Positions 22,311-28,912 of a DNA stretch of 64,000 nucleotides are shown piece after piece; the stretch's first letter is position 1; every line of letters starts with the position of its first letter. A model generated the notes under the pieces. It had not been told where the DNA came from, ran no database searches, and saw only the letters and a program-made list of their open reading frames with translations. Source of the stretch: Nostoc sp. T09 (GTDB lineage: Bacteria > Cyanobacteriota > Cyanobacteriia > Cyanobacteriales > Nostocaceae); contig NZ_MTAV01000082.1 in the NCBI RefSeq assembly GCF_002154695.1, positions 62,001 through 126,000 on the forward strand, in the 5' to 3' direction. The position numbers and the translations under genes were made by a program.

Positions 22311-23507
22311 CTATTCCTCCGGTAACTTATACTGCCCAACGATCCGCTTGGCATAGTCCGGCACATGCGCCTCCAACTTCTCCGGATGATTCCGCTTCAC
22401 ATACAAATAATTCCTTGTAAAGTGCGAATCAATCGAGAACCGCGCATATTCCAAACCCTTAGGCCCAATTCTTTCAATCACCACACCCATCAACTTTGCT
22501 GCCCACATGGGTAAAGTAACGGCTTTATCGTAAGCGGGAATGCTTTGTTGTACAGCTTCTTTACGATTACCTTGGGACATGACAGGTTGAGTGTCTAACT
22601 GGTCTTTCACCAAGTTCAACATTTCTTTGCCTGTGTCATTTCTAACTACAATCCACTGCCAGCCGAAGGGTGCGCCCATGTAGCCGACAACTAAATCTGC
22701 TAGGGAGTTGACATAATCAAAGCAACTCATGCAAGAAGGGGCAAAGACATTTTTGAGTTTATTGGTCTTTAAGCCAAAGAATGGCACGGTTTCCGTAGAA
22801 CCATCCTCATGTTTGAAGTGAACTCGGAAGTCTTGCATAAATTCATAATGCACGACTGTCTCAGGCGATCGGCTGGTGGTTTCTAAGAATTTTTGGAGTC
22901 CAGCACGGCTAACGTTATCTACGCAAGGTGTACCTAAGACATACAGCTTTTCTAACCCAAGCTGTTTTTCTACGGCTCTTAATGCCTGGATTTGGCAACC
23001 AACTCCAATCACCAATAGCCGCTTCATCCCTGATTTTTCTATCTGTTCTAAAACAGATAAATTGGGTGATAGTGTTGGTTTATTTACTTTAGCTGCCAGT
23101 ATTTCCTCTGGGGTACGGGCAATAATGGGCATGGGTTGAAAGCGGTCTTCTTTGGTGTTTTGCACGCAGACAACACCTTCAACTATGCCACGATTCAACA
23201 TTTCAATGGCAATACTGCTGACAATACCAGTCCATTGCGCCCCTTCGATAGGCTGCTGTTTCCGCGCCGCCATCATGTCTTGATGAACACCAAAGTAGAG
23301 TTCATCGGGGTTATCGAGATTGCGGGGGCGAGTGTGGGCTTGTTCTTCAAGTTCGCCTATCTGCTGATTAATAAAGGCGCAAGCTTCTTTGACGTAGTGG
23401 ATGTAGTATGTATCGCACAGTCCGCACTCGCTACAAAGTTCTTTCGCAGGACGGCGGCTAGTGGCTTTTAAAGCTCTGGCTTTTTTATGAGGAGAAACCG
23501 AAGTCAT
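22311..23507 (-). CDS. bciB: Ferredoxin-type divinyl (proto)chlorophyllide 8-vinyl reductase
   Basis: This enzyme reduces the 8-vinyl group of divinyl chlorophyllide precursors in chlorophyll synthesis. The 398-residue protein is of the coenzyme F420 hydrogenase beta-subunit type, as in Synechocystis Slr1923. Iron-sulfur ligands are visible in CSECGLC (Cys25, 28, 31) and in APSCMSCFDY. VIGVGCQIQALRA and GTPCVDN are family motifs of the flavin domain. No membrane segment is present. Homologous proteins include plant hydroxymethyl chlorophyll a reductase, but the cyanobacterial member is normally BciB. The upstream region 23508-23968 should hold its promoter on the minus strand. Confidence 0.9.
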   Translation of the reverse strand: MTSVSPHKKARALKATSRRPAKELCSECGLCDTYYIHYVKEACAFINQQIGELEEQAHTRPRNLDNPDELYFGVHQDMMAARKQQPIEGAQWTGIVSSIAIEMLNRGIVEGVVCVQNTKEDRFQPMPIIARTPEEILAAKVNKPTLSPNLSVLEQIEKSGMKRLLVIGVGCQIQALRAVEKQLGLEKLYVLGTPCVDNVSRAGLQKFLETTSRSPETVVHYEFMQDFRVHFKHEDGSTETVPFFGLKTNKLKNVFAPSCMSCFDYVNSLADLVVGYMGAPFGWQWIVVRNDTGKEMLNLVKDQLDTQPVMSQGNRKEAVQQSIPAYDKAVTLPMWAAKLMGVVIERIGPKGLEYARFSIDSHFTRNYLYVKRNHPEKLEAHVPDYAKRIVGQYKLPEE

Positions 23508-23968: not shown

Positions 23969-24178
23969 ATGGCTAAAAAACGCCAGGAAGATGATATTAA
24001 AGAAGCTGCGGCATTTGCAGCAGGTGGAGCCGCAGCAGGTGCAGGGGTCGCAGCGACCGTTGGCGGTATGGGTCTAGCAGTAGGAGGAACTGCTGTTGCT
24101 ATTGGCGCTGCTCCGGTAGTAGCTGCTGGTGCAGTGGTTGGACTTGCTGCTTATGGCTTGAAGAAAATTTTTGACTAA
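23969..24178 (+). CDS. Gly/Ala-rich hydrophobic mini-protein A
   Basis: The 69-residue product has a charged N-terminus (MAKKRQEDDIKEAA), then about 45 residues made almost only of Gly, Ala and Val with GxxxG and AxxxG spacing, and a basic end AAYGLKKIFD. This is the pattern of a glycine-zipper membrane peptide. No family was recognised. The next gene, 28 bases on, encodes a similar protein ending AAYGVKKVFFD, and an HNH nuclease follows. It may be a membrane-active peptide, a small holin-like or bacteriocin-like protein, or an assembly-forming partner of the nuclease; sequence alone does not decide. Confidence 0.7.
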   Translation: MAKKRQEDDIKEAAAFAAGGAAAGAGVAATVGGMGLAVGGTAVAIGAAPVVAAGAVVGLAAYGLKKIFD

Positions 24179-24206
24179 GTAAGCTGTAAATACAGGATAC
24201 ACATAA

Positions 24207-24431
24207 ATGCTAAGCTCACAAGACTCTAATGCTATACGTGCTATTGCAGCTGCTTCATCGGCTGCTGCTGGTCTAGGCTCTATTACAGTAGCTACACTTA
24301 CTTCAACTGCACCTGGAATTTTAGGTGTTCTAGGATTTACGACAACGACAGTTGTTGCATTACCAGCAGCAGGAATTGTTGCAACCGCAGGACTTGCAGC
24401 TTATGGAGTGAAGAAAGTCTTTTTTGACTAA
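24207..24431 (+). CDS. Gly/Ala-rich hydrophobic mini-protein B
   Basis: The 74-residue product resembles mini-protein A in layout. A short polar start (MLSSQDSNAIRAI) is followed by long Ala/Gly/Thr/Val-rich hydrophobic segments broken by Pro, and it ends AAYGVKKVFFD, almost the same end as A. The C-terminal match in two otherwise different tandem mini-proteins suggests a common recognition or anchoring function. It sits seven bases before the HNH gene, so translation is probably coupled. No known family was recognised. Confidence 0.7.
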   Translation: MLSSQDSNAIRAIAAASSAAAGLGSITVATLTSTAPGILGVLGFTTTTVVALPAAGIVATAGLAAYGVKKVFFD

Positions 24432-24438
24432 GCTGTAG

Positions 24439-24807
24439 ATGGCAAAAAATCCTCCTAATCCACTGCAAAAACTGGTAAGAGGTATGATTCGGGATTTGAT
24501 TAATCAGGCTAATGGTCAAAAAGCCGATAAAGCAAAAAAGCTAAAGGCTAAAAAACCTGCTACCAAATCCCAATCCAAATCTAACCAGCAAACAAAAAAG
24601 CGATCGCGTCATATTCCCCTATCAATTCGTTTTGCAGTTTTGCAAAGAGATGACCATAAATGTGTTTCTTGTGGTCAAAGTCCACCACAAGTCACGCTAG
24701 AAGTTGACCATAAAAAGCCTTTTTCTAAAGGAGGCAGTAACGACATGAACAATTTGCAAACGCTGTGTTTCCATTGCAATCGTGGAAAAGGTGCGCGTAG
24801 TTTATAA
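24439..24807 (+). CDS. HNH endonuclease with lysine-rich N-terminus
   Basis: The 122-residue protein has an amphipathic start (NPLQKLVRGMIRDLINQA) and a Lys/Gln/Ser-rich linker (about 27-56) probably binding DNA or RNA. A C-terminal HNH domain follows: CxxC at 75-78, Asp90-His91, Asn105 and CxxC at 110-113, in McrA-like order. HNH domains of this kind hydrolyse DNA with a bound metal. It is the third gene of a compact unit with two Gly/Ala-rich mini-proteins and is followed by a clear terminator, so the three genes form one transcription unit. Confidence 0.88.
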   Translation: MAKNPPNPLQKLVRGMIRDLINQANGQKADKAKKLKAKKPATKSQSKSNQQTKKRSRHIPLSIRFAVLQRDDHKCVSCGQSPPQVTLEVDHKKPFSKGGSNDMNNLQTLCFHCNRGKGARSL

Positions 24808-24841
24808 TGACGTATACAATATTTGCCAAATAACAAAGATG

Positions 24842-24873
24842 ACCCTTCGGTATTTTAACTGAAGGGTTTTACT
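24842..24873 (+). terminator. Rho-independent terminator after the HNH gene
   Basis: ACCCTTCGGT and ACTGAAGGGT form a stem around attttA, followed by TTTTACT. It lies 35 bases after the HNH stop. Confidence 0.75.
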
Positions 24874-25716: not shown

Positions 25717-27165
25717 ATGCAAATAAACGAATTGGTAATAGCTGAAAATATAGAAGAAGAAGCCTGGCAAGCACTAGAAAAGTCAATTATCTATTATCAA
25801 GGTCGTCCTATTGGGACTTTGGCCGCATACGATGCATCTGTAGAGGCGCTGAATTACGACCAATGCTTTATCCGAGATTTTGTTTCGTCGGCTCTAATTT
25901 TCCTAATCAAAGGTAAAACGGAAATTGTCCGCAATTTTCTAGAAGAAACATTAAAGTTACAGCCTAAAGAAAGAGCATTAGATGCATATAAACCTGGAAG
26001 AGGTCTAATTCCAGCTAGCTTCAAAGTTGTGTCTCTCAATGGTGAGGAATATTTAGAAGCAGATTTTGGCGAACATGCGATCGCTAGAGTTACACCTGTT
26101 GATTCCTGTCTCTGGTGGATTATTTTATTGCGTGCTTATGTAGTCGCTACTAAAGATTATTCCATAGCGTATCAGCCTGAATTTCAAAATGGTATCAAGT
26201 TGATTATGGAAATCTGCTTGGCGAATCGTTTTGATATGTACCCAACGTTGTTGGTTCCAGATGGCGCTTGTATGATTGATCGCCGTTTGGGTATATATGG
26301 TCATCCTCTAGAAATTCAAGTTTTATTTTATACGGCTCTGCGTGCTGCTCGTGAACTGCTAATTTGTCAAGGTAATCAGGATATTGTGGCAGCAATTGAT
26401 AACCGCTTACCTCTTTTATGCGCTCATATTCGTCAACATTATTGGATAGATATAAATCGCTTGAATGCGATTTATCGCTTCAAGAGTGAAGAGTATGGCA
26501 AAGGAGCAGTCAATTTATTCAATATATATGTAGACTCTCTTCCTTATTATGAATTAGATAAATGGCTACCGAGAAAAGGTGGTTATTTAGCTGGTAATGT
26601 TGGTCCTTCTCAACTAGATACTCGTTTCTTTTCCCTTGGTAATTTGATGGCGATCATTTCCGATCTTGCAACTGAAGAACAGTCGCAAGCGATTATGAAC
26701 CTCATTGAGGAAAGATGGGACGATTTGGTGGGAGATATGCCAATGAAAATTTGTTTCCCAGCTTTAGAACACGAAGAGTATAGAATTGTCACAGGATGTG
26801 ACCCCAAAAATATTCCTTGGTCTTATCATAATGCTGGAAGCTGGCCAGTTTTGATGTGGATGATGGCAGCTGCTGCTGTGAAAACTAACAAAACAGGTTT
26901 AGTTAGAAAGGCTATTGAACTTGCCCAAACACGTCTAAGTGAAGATGAATGGCCAGAATATTACGATGGTAAAAAAGGACGATTGATTGGTAAGCAAGCT
27001 AGGAAATATCAAACTTGGTCTATTGCTGGGTTCTTATTAGCAAAAGAACTGATAGCTAACCCCAGTTATTTACGATTAGTAAGTTTTGATGAATTATCCC
27101 CAGAAGCAGTTTCTAGAGCATGTGAGTTTGAAATTGGTAGTATAGATCCATACATGCCGCGATAG
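25717..27165 (+). CDS. Neutral/alkaline invertase (GH100), upstream copy
   Basis: This enzyme hydrolyses sucrose to glucose and fructose in the cytosol. The 482-residue protein shows the GH100 pattern: [26 protein letters not shown] holding the catalytic acid region, [64 protein letters not shown] and [19 protein letters not shown] near the end. No signal peptide. It is about three quarters identical by eye to the gene that follows, so the two are tandem paralogues. The usual RDFVPSA is RDFVSSA here. Such invertases are needed to use sucrose during heterocyst-based nitrogen fixation. Confidence 0.94.
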
Positions 27166-27254: not shown

Positions 27255-27496
27255 TTTTCTAAATTGCTCTCTACGAGCACTTCAAGAATATGTCATCACA
27301 GAAAATGAAGTAAGTGAAAAAGTTGGCCTATCCTGAGAGAATGGACAATGAATTATAGCGCTGGAGAAAGTGTGGCAAAAGCTCAGTGACTATATATTTT
27401 TGTCTTTATTAATCGGCGAAAAAGCATTACATCAACAAAGAAAAATAAAAGTATCATTTACTGCCAAAATCCAAGAAAGATGGAGTGGTTCTCGTA

Positions 27497-28912
27497 ATGG
27501 AAAGAGAGGAATTAGTAATATTTGATGAGATAGAGAAACAGGCATGGGAACTACTAGAAAAGTCGATTATTTACTATCAAGGTCGCCCTATAGGTACAAT
27601 CGCCGCTAGCGAGCCATCAGAAGTAGCATTGAATTACGATCATTGCTTTGTCAGAGATTTTGTACCATCAGCCTTACTTTTTCTGATCAAAGGTAGATAT
27701 GATATTGTCCGTAATTTCCTTGAAGAAACTTTAAAATTACAACCAACTGAAAATCTCTTAAATGCTTATACCCCTGGTCGAGGTTTGATACCAGCAAGCT
27801 TCAAAGTGGTATCAACGAATGAGCAAGAATATTTAGAAGCAGATTTTGGCGAACATGCGATCGCTAGAGTTACACCAGTTGATTCCTGCCTCTGGTGGAT
27901 TATTATTTTATATGCATATGTCAAAGCCACAAAAGATATAAATTTCGCCTTGCAACCTGAGTTTCAGCAGGGAATCGTGTTAATCATGGAACTCTGCTTG
28001 GCGACTCGATTTGATATGTACCCAACGCTATTAGTTCCAGATGGCGCTTGTATGATTCAACGGCGTTTGGGTATTTACGGCTATCCTTTAGAAATTCAAG
28101 CTCTATTTTATGGGGCATTGCGTGCTGCTCGCAAGTTACTAATTTGTGCAGGCGATGAAGAGATTGTTATAGGTATTGATAATCGCTTACCTGTATTACG
28201 AGATCATATTCGGAATCATTATTGGATAGATATGCATCGCCTGAATGCAATTTATCGCTTTAAAGGTGAAGAATATGGTCATACAGCCGTCAATCAGTTC
28301 AATATATATGCAGATTCAATTGCTTATGCTAAGTTGGCTCTTTGGTTACCAAAACTCGGTGGTTATTTAGCTGGTAATGTTGGTCCCTCGCAGCTAGATA
28401 CTCGCTTTTTTTCACTTGGAAATTTGATGGCGATTTTGACTTCTTTAGCTAGCGATCGCCAATCACAAGCAATTATGAATTTGATTGAAGAACAGTGGCA
28501 AGACTTAGTGGCAGAAATGCCGATGAAAATCTGTTTCCCTGCTATAGAAAAAGAAGAGTACAGAATTTTTACAGGATGTGACCCCAAAAATCCACCTTGG
28601 TCGTATCATAATGGTGGCAGTTGGCCAGTCTTATTGTGGTTGTTAACTGCTGCTGCTCAAAAAACAGGTAGAACAAGTCTTGCTCAACGCGCTATTGAAA
28701 TTGCCCAAACCCGTCTTAGTGAAGATCAATGGCCGCAATATTACGATGGGACGAGGGGATTATTAATTGGTAAAGAAGCCAGGAGATATCAAACCTGGAC
28801 AATTACCGGGTTTTTATTAGCAAAAGAATTGATGCGCAACTCTGATTATTTAGAATTAATGAGTTTTGCAGAATTTGATTTAAACAATGCTTCCCAAATT
28901 TGTGATTTATAA
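27497..28912 (+). CDS. Neutral/alkaline invertase (GH100), downstream copy
   Basis: This is a second cytosolic sucrose hydrolase, 471 residues from ATG 27497, which has ggag 12 bases upstream. The GTG at 27485 overlaps that site and is less likely. It has the same motif order as its neighbour: [78 protein letters not shown] and [11 protein letters not shown]. Nostoc strains usually carry two such enzymes (InvA and InvB) at separate loci; here two lie in tandem, separated by a terminator. Which corresponds to InvA or InvB cannot be settled by eye. Confidence 0.94.

Follow-up and report, generated by a model that had tools for sequence, protein, structure and literature searches.

A conserved cyanobacterial gene pair of a putative membrane module and a nuclease with an exchangeable head

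Our analyses have identified two genes, encoding a small Gly/Ala/Val-rich protein (here termed GZ) and a nuclease, that constitute a conserved pair. The pair occurs in many cyanobacteria and in a predicted prophage, and its nuclease head varies by lineage, which points to a form of membrane-tethered defence against incoming DNA that has yet to be described. We give an even chance to the reading that the unit is a two-gene, membrane-tethered nuclease cutting incoming DNA, of which the tethering and the defence role are what we infer. The fuller proposal, that this is an undescribed two-gene immune system of cyanobacteria and of a Mu-like prophage, in which a new membrane module would hold a nuclease with an exchangeable head at the membrane and so destroy entering DNA, is advanced tentatively, at somewhat short of an even chance.

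The gene pair and its distribution

The window, viz. the whole stretch of 64,000 nucleotides that was analysed, lies on contig C21 of a genome of 8.25 Mb and carries the pair with a further small gene, P2, between its members (Table 1). An earlier, sequence-only reading had described three tightly spaced genes ending in a single terminator, and both points have been borne out. The ORF list of the window gives gaps of 28 bases between GZ and P2 and 7 bases between P2 and HNH, and the terminator-like hairpin past the nuclease gene has 11 pairs, 5 of them G-C, and a T-rich tail (the hairpin scan gave 3 terminator-like sites in 1,451 bases vs. a shuffle mean of 1.4). The flanking gene was identified by its FrhB_FdhB_C domain (Pfam E 3.2e-32). 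Neither GZ nor P2 is significantly matched in Pfam, NCBIfam, PADLOC or PHROGs, and the window genome contains one copy of each at the limits used. Two tandem paralogues of 482 and 475 aa, which we take to resemble neutral invertase, are also found in the window (25717–27165 and 27485–28912), and a relative of them is present downstream of GZ-P2 in genome G111.

Table 1. Features of the three-gene unit in the window and positions of GZ-bearing paralogues at other loci.
Feature	Sequence	Coordinates	Strand	Basis
GZ, 69 aa, Gly/Ala/Val-rich, one module copy; putative membrane tether	Window	23969–24178	+	ORF
P2, 74 aa, small hydrophobic protein between GZ and HNH	Window	24207–24431	+	ORF
HNH nuclease, 122 aa; putative effector of the pair	Window	24439–24807	+	ORF, Pfam, fold matches
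N-terminal amphipathic cationic helix of nuclease, residues 8–25; putative dock to GZ/membrane	Window	24460–24513	+	Model, moment
Lys-rich linker of nuclease, residues 26–55, largely predicted disordered	Window	24514–24603	+	pLDDT
HNH domain, residues 75–120	Window	24661–24798	+	Pfam PF01844, pLDDT
Intrinsic-terminator-like hairpin, 33 bases past HNH stop	Window	24841–24868	+	Hairpin scan
FrhB/FdhB-domain gene, flanking, outside the unit, divergent upstream of GZ	Window	22311–23507	-	Pfam
GZ-bearing PspA/Vipp1 paralogue	L042	3657–4805		
GZ-bearing PspA/Vipp1 paralogue	L117	5303–6451		
GZ-bearing PspA/Vipp1 paralogue	L132	4556–5326		
GZ-bearing PspA/Vipp1 paralogue	L146	4028–4843		
GZ-bearing PspA/Vipp1 paralogue	L033	4766–5569		

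In a search with the HNH protein that took no account of GZ, 17 genomes were listed whose match starts from residue 1–7 (E up to 2.1e-25), and the nuclease gene adjoins a GZ gene in all 17; the further matches listed are weaker and mostly cover only the HNH domain. Among these 17, the HNH gene is thus never found without the mini-protein, whereas its usual occurrence alone would, in the sequence-only reading, have spoken against a system. When nuclease residues 1–28 were searched alone in 291 genomes, matches (E up to 0.01) were obtained in 38: in 31 an intact nuclease gene follows GZ, 2 have decayed pairs (G016 and G196), and 5 give weak partial matches (G174, G242, G121, G129 and G031) that were set aside as short and with weak E-values. 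Sixteen of the 31 intact genes are rows of the search profile, and the 15 new ones consist of 14 with a second, PD-(D/E)XK-like type of nuclease domain (PD-type) and that of G263. The intact pairs are spread over 11 family labels. Outside the order, the helix search matched only in part and in other frames, in three genomes (G315, G325 and G485), none of which is among those listed as GZ-positive in the phylum-wide sample described below.

The two genes are closely spaced. Among 26 pairs measured (17 HNH, 1 prophage and 8 of the 14 PD-type), with gene starts picked by script, gaps range from -23 to 119 bases except in the window, where the presence of P2 in between brings the distance to 260 bases. 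The genes overlap or lie at most 9 bases apart in 20 of these pairs, and in each of the six PD-type loci outside this set GZ is directly upstream. As called, the GZ partners of the nucleases have lengths of 61 to 179 residues. In G111 and G206, GZ-P2 is found without HNH at the same FrhB-side locus. The conserved gene order anticipated earlier holds for GZ and the nuclease, which is kept across cyanobacteria, but not for GZ-P2-HNH, which among the loci examined was found only in the window; G061 has GZ-HNH-P2.

Relatives of all three genes are under purifying selection, and they are therefore not the chance frames that the sequence-only reading had considered. The dN/dS values are 0.20–0.33 for HNH in 10 pairwise comparisons, 0.10–0.24 for GZ in five of six (with one saturated), 0.06–0.38 for P2 in 6, and 0.02–0.17 for the PD type in 11 of the 12 comparisons shown, with 0.65 in G127–G167.

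One prophage contig in IMG/VR (IMGVR_UViG_2506783054_000001, L153), and only one, carries the GZ-HNH pair, here encoding proteins of 130 aa and 112 aa with a one-base overlap. Within the stretch of about 10 kb of its 47 kb that was read, the pair is flanked by an HTH gene on one side and a KilA-N gene (KilA-N 4.4e-19) on the other; a Mu-type transposase is encoded nearby (Mu-transpos_C 4.9e-18), as is a C5 methyltransferase (2.3e-36), and the contig is predicted to be a Mu-like prophage. The N-terminal part of the KilA-N protein also matches the BstA abortive-infection family (8.7e-11). At the limits used, the plasmid collection contained no match to HNH, GZ or two-copy GZ, and the named-phage collection none to GZ.

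The nuclease: a shared helix and two heads

The identification of the third gene as an HNH nuclease with a Lys-rich linker is supported by Pfam PF01844 (E 9.7e-14; 51.7 bits vs. a cut-off of 21.4) and by a linker that is predicted to be disordered. The window protein carries the motifs VDH, CVSC and CFHC; C75, C78, C110 and C113 are invariant in 16 aligned HNH proteins, and H91 is present in at least 90%. One exception is the HNH protein of G073 (L102, 5114–5470), which has Tyr for the motif His and may be an inactive enzyme; its GZ neighbour is an open frame. The best fold matches are 6ghc (EcoKMcrA; E 9.9e-5), although with an rmsd of 16 across the full length, and 5zmm (ScoMcrA; E 0.017), with an rmsd of 2.8 for 67 columns; the best sequence match is 5h0m (E 8.4e-10), and no second known domain was found by Pfam in the 122-residue protein.

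The 16 HNH proteins, when aligned, display PNPLQKLVRGxIRDLINQ at the N-terminus, then a Lys-rich linker and the HNH domain. The structure model of the window nuclease agrees with this arrangement, with a helix, a disordered linker (pLDDT under 50 at residues 29–38 and 42–52) and a confident HNH domain (block means of 89–96 over residues 61–110 and 78 over 111–120). The hydrophobic moment of the window helix is 0.58 (shuffle p 0.017); in 14 sequences it ranges from 0.44 to 0.69, with p below 0.03 in ten and 0.05–0.13 in the other four.

Of the 31 intact genes, 17 have an HNH domain behind the helix, and the other 14 a PD-(D/E)XK-like domain. In 11 aligned proteins of these 14, the residues E44, D70, E79-x-K81 and Q92-x3-Y96 are invariant, a series (E..D..ExK..QxxxY) which we take to be the pattern of the PD-(D/E)XK superfamily; L274, outside this alignment, has Arg at the Gly before Q92 and retains Q92. 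A PD-(D/E)XK fold of the second head is likely, short of proved, because profile support is weak and the domain has no PDB match: among six PD-type proteins, PDDEXK_9 was found in three (best E 0.0043, below cut-off) and Cas4b in three (best 7.6e-4), HSDR_N and Tox-REase-3 matched weakly in one, and families of no relation scored about as well by chance, e.g. MCR_D at 0.0017 in another PD-type protein. With a PD-type protein as query, five HNH-type proteins were matched, and only over their first 24–34 residues (E 3.5e-6 to 4.5e-5). The helix is common to the two heads, and it is therefore the helix, rather than the nuclease domain, that goes with GZ. A tree built on a short alignment of 39 C-terminal copies of GZ places the eight PD-linked copies in one clade (support 0.874) among the HNH-linked copies, so that a single exchange of the head suffices to explain the distribution.

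The PD-like domain is also found in seven IMG/VR contigs, in which the matches start at residue 42–51. Among the four that were read (L278, L279, L282 and L284), the domain follows a Cys-rich N-terminal stretch in two and has other surroundings in the remaining two; two of the four lie near genes labelled by eye as terminase-like.

The GZ module and its occasional companion P2

Relatives of the window GZ were detected in 88 of the 291 genomes of the order, the window genome included (E up to 0.001). In a phylum-wide sample 38 of 292 genomes are positive at E up to 1e-4, and 37 of these 38 belong to the window's order; within cyanobacteria, the module is thus found almost only in one order. It occurs as a single copy, as a tandem double (about 130–180 aa as a rule), and as a double that opens a larger protein or lies close to its N-terminus. 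GZ has hydropathy peaks (KD19) of 2.15 and 1.51, residues 13–64 of the window protein are uncharged, and 17 aligned GZ proteins all have G20, G24, G54 and G58; the structure model is of low confidence (pLDDT 63). The glycine-zipper spacing that had been proposed as a signature of both small proteins did not hold, since GxxxG is not above shuffles (3 vs. a mean of 2.5 in GZ and 0 vs. 0.8 in P2 of the window).

Two types of larger proteins contain the module. In each of the five WD40 proteins whose whole sequence was read (L032, L033, L034, L036 and L040), two GZ copies precede a WD40 propeller, and a J domain forms the C-terminus, as confirmed by Pfam in the one WD40-J protein that was run (L036, 4090–5985; WD40 2.1e-77, DnaJ 1.5e-15). 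Frames of about 580–610 aa with GZ matches are frequent within the window's own family. In eight further proteins (L033, L037, L038, L039, L042, L117, L132 and L146), two GZ copies are located inside a paralogue of PspA/Vipp1 (ESCRT-III), placed, by eye, after the apparent first helix of the family in seven of the eight; Pfam PspA_IM30 was matched in all three that were run (L042 4.6e-43, L132 2.7e-12, L146 5e-14). The first helix of the PspA/Vipp1 family binds membranes. Because it is found in WD40-J proteins and inserted in PspA/Vipp1 paralogues, GZ is read as a membrane module, and it probably sits in the membrane. At L113 (2864–4939), another membrane-type context of GZ is seen, in the gene row GZ, P2, a DUF1232 protein and a GTPase with DUF697.

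The P2 family is present in 20 of 291 genomes, the window genome included, and 8 of the 15 strong P2 loci adjoin GZ. The two mini-proteins do not form the fixed pair that had been supposed; P2 is an optional, occasional companion of GZ and a small membrane-type protein. The matching AAYG(L/V)KK(I/V)F ends reported earlier are both present in the window (AAYGLKKIF and AAYGVKKVF), but an AAYG-type shared end is found in only 2 of 15 aligned P2 proteins (the window and G111), many others ending GYGxYKG, which argues against a targeting tag. Comparison of the GZ and P2 profiles gave 31% probability over 33 columns, and the GZ profile matches P2 of the window at 2e-5 and of G111 at 2e-4 and no other P2 at 1e-3; the kinship of the two families is unsettled. 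The 3' DNA ends of GZ and P2 are alike within a genome (scores of 27 in the window and 28 in G111, neither reached in 500 codon shuffles) and less so between genomes (22 and 20, reached by 3 and 2 of 500), in a shuffle that leaves protein likeness uncontrolled. We read the like ends as local exchange or convergence and not as a tag of the system.

Seven P2 loci (L133–L139) lie away from GZ, and four of their neighbours were tested, with no control set. In L139 (1106–4642) a DISARM drmD gene is located 115 bases downstream of P2 (PADLOC 1.1e-299), and in L134 (4472–9001) P2 is followed at about 1.3 kb by a drmD-like gene (3.1e-118); L138 has a GmrSD_N gene near P2 (4.4e-25), on the opposite strand, and in L136 a Panacea-domain gene (1.9e-16) lies about 0.7 kb past P2. 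A further HNH-like gene and a small RelE/HTH-like pair were recognised by eye near P2 in L137, and no comparable gene in L133 and L135. Where they precede drmD-type helicase genes of DISARM, P2-family genes are possibly a small accessory of defence loci. No P2 was found in the viral contigs searched. Directly 3' of P2 in L133, L134 and L137 is a 91-aa Ala/Gly-rich gene (MKPEEVLAAGTG or MKPEEILAAGTG...), for which a likeness to Ifi-6-16 was considered and rejected, there being no Pfam match.

Proposed mechanism, alternatives and known systems

In the mechanism that we propose, GZ, as a small alpha-helical protein, would insert in the cytoplasmic or thylakoid membrane, and the nuclease would dock on GZ, or on the membrane beside it, by means of its conserved N-terminal amphipathic helix. 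The flexible linker would let the head, whether HNH or PD-(D/E)XK-like, cut DNA near the membrane, the most likely target being phage or other foreign DNA during entry, with P2 as an optional small membrane-type companion. The proposal draws on the pairing and close spacing of the genes, the helix common to both heads, the joint decay in G016 and G196, the loss of the helix in the two HNH relatives with no GZ nearby (G239 and G256), the purifying selection, the PspA/Vipp1 insertions, the McrA-type kin by fold and the prophage copy. Against it weigh the FrhB-type neighbour kept in seven loci, the 57 of 88 GZ-positive genomes with no intact pair, GZ-P2 without HNH in G111 and G206, the empty plasmid and named-phage searches at the limits used, the single prophage contig, the absence of a specific PADLOC match for GZ or P2, the low-confidence GZ model and the Tyr in the HNH motif of G073. 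If true, this would represent a minimal two-gene form of membrane-held nuclease immunity, in which tether and nuclease are separate and the head has been exchanged in evolution, and GZ would be a new membrane module linking ESCRT-III-type membrane proteins, J-domain proteins and nucleases. G112 and a contig of Microcystis aeruginosa LEGE 91341 share an identical stretch of 7,000 bases, and Microcystis sp. LSC13-02 has the same pair; the matches listed in a named-genome scan with a single protein include at least two Microcystis records. Microcystis thus carries the PD-(D/E)XK-like form, and a role in phage infection is therefore testable in an ecologically important host.

The alternative that survives best is a housekeeping role in membrane stress or DNA maintenance, in which GZ would mark damaged or special membrane zones, as PspA/Vipp1 does, and the nuclease would process DNA there (in uptake, damage or segregation) with no part in conflict. 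Such a role would suit the presence of GZ in PspA/Vipp1 and WD40-J proteins, the purifying selection and the FrhB-type neighbour, which is found within about 1 kb in seven loci from families f1, f15, f18 and f33 (the window, whose copy was assigned by Pfam, and, by eye, L093, L094, L099, L041, L107 and L110). This neighbour marks an orthologous position, and its retention makes the locus look vertical, unlike a roaming defence gene. However, the intact pair is patchily present (31 of 291 genomes, and 1 of the 29 sampled from the window's family), its nuclease domain has been exchanged, and a predicted Mu-like prophage carries it, and we consider the housekeeping role unlikely.

It is more improbable still that the genes are a toxin-antitoxin or nuclease-immunity pair, with GZ neutralising a toxic nuclease encoded just 3' of it. 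The layout is that of type II toxin-antitoxin pairs, the small gene being upstream and overlapping or close (with exactly one base of overlap in 10 of 26 pairs), and the partners have decayed jointly in G016, where GZ has an internal gap and HNH is split by about 1 kb, and in G196, where remnants of both lie downstream of an intact GZ-PspA gene. Against this, GZ has been retained beside two nuclease domains that are unrelated, which makes an active-site inhibitor unlikely and argues against a GZ that binds the nuclease domain; 57 of the 88 GZ-positive genomes have no intact pair; and G239 and G256 contain HNH remnants, close relatives without the helix, with GZ absent from the 10-kb stretches examined. 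A selfish, free-standing endonuclease of homing type, spreading together with the GZ gene, is very improbable: both the HNH and the PD-(D/E)XK-like domain do occur in phage or predicted viral sequences, but the helix is kept on two unrelated nucleases, the seven viral relatives match only from residue 42–51, and the pairs have different neighbours in different families. Least credible is the bacteriocin-like set suggested by the sequence-only reading, in which secreted mini-proteins would permeabilise a rival's membrane for a killing nuclease, since the weak resemblance of the two-copy GZ protein of G044 to Bacteriocin_IIc (E 0.046) falls below cut-off (PF10439, 14.1 vs. 27.1 bits for one two-copy protein), window GZ and P2 match no class II bacteriocin profile, no leader, export or immunity gene was recognised by eye among the neighbours, and GZ is built into PspA and WD40-J proteins; the membrane-linked nuclease or defence function that the same reading had offered is the best reading and one that we infer.

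The open-access literature yielded nothing on the combination of glycine zipper, HNH and cyanobacteria; among the papers listed, none treats the GZ-nuclease pair as judged by title or opening of the abstract, and none of those listed for PspA/Vipp1 mentions a glycine zipper. Neither "glycine zipper" nor "nuclease" occurs in the main text of a survey of PSP proteins (PMC11237479). A paper on the CoCoNuT restriction systems describes a glycine-zipper protein beside an ATPase, which is a different set (PMC11090510). Some cyanobacterial members of the PspA/IM30 (Vipp1) ESCRT-III family have the two-copy GZ module, whereas the window GZ, P2 and HNH proteins have no PspA part (Pfam). McrA-type HNH restriction enzymes have the HNH fold in common with the window nuclease, which differs in having a helix and linker instead of a second known domain. 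Matches to PtuB of Septu are weak and limited to the HNH region (best 1.5e-5, PADLOC), and the three-gene unit has no ATPase.

The closest analogues are Zorya II and SNIPE, and the unit is a member of neither. In Zorya II, the HNH nickase ZorE reaches the membrane during infection under the direction of ZorAB (PMC11890865), which resembles the combination of a membrane component (here the putative GZ) with an HNH-domain partner; however, ZorA and ZorB are MotAB-like, whereas nuclease-paired GZ proteins are hydrophobic and of 61 to 179 residues, and the window's three proteins have no PADLOC match to ZorA, ZorB or ZorE at E up to 1. SNIPE is a nuclease that is bound to the membrane and cuts phage DNA while this is being injected; it is a single protein with DUF4041 and a GIY-YIG nuclease in which the membrane-targeting N-terminal parts are variable and the nuclease is conserved (PMC13190303). 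The pair would share with it a nuclease placed at the membrane, as SNIPE is when it cuts phage DNA on entry (PMC13190303). Pfam found no DUF4041 or GIY-YIG in the window's three proteins, and the pair differs from SNIPE in that its putative membrane part is a separate gene and its head, HNH or PD-(D/E)XK-like, is variable.
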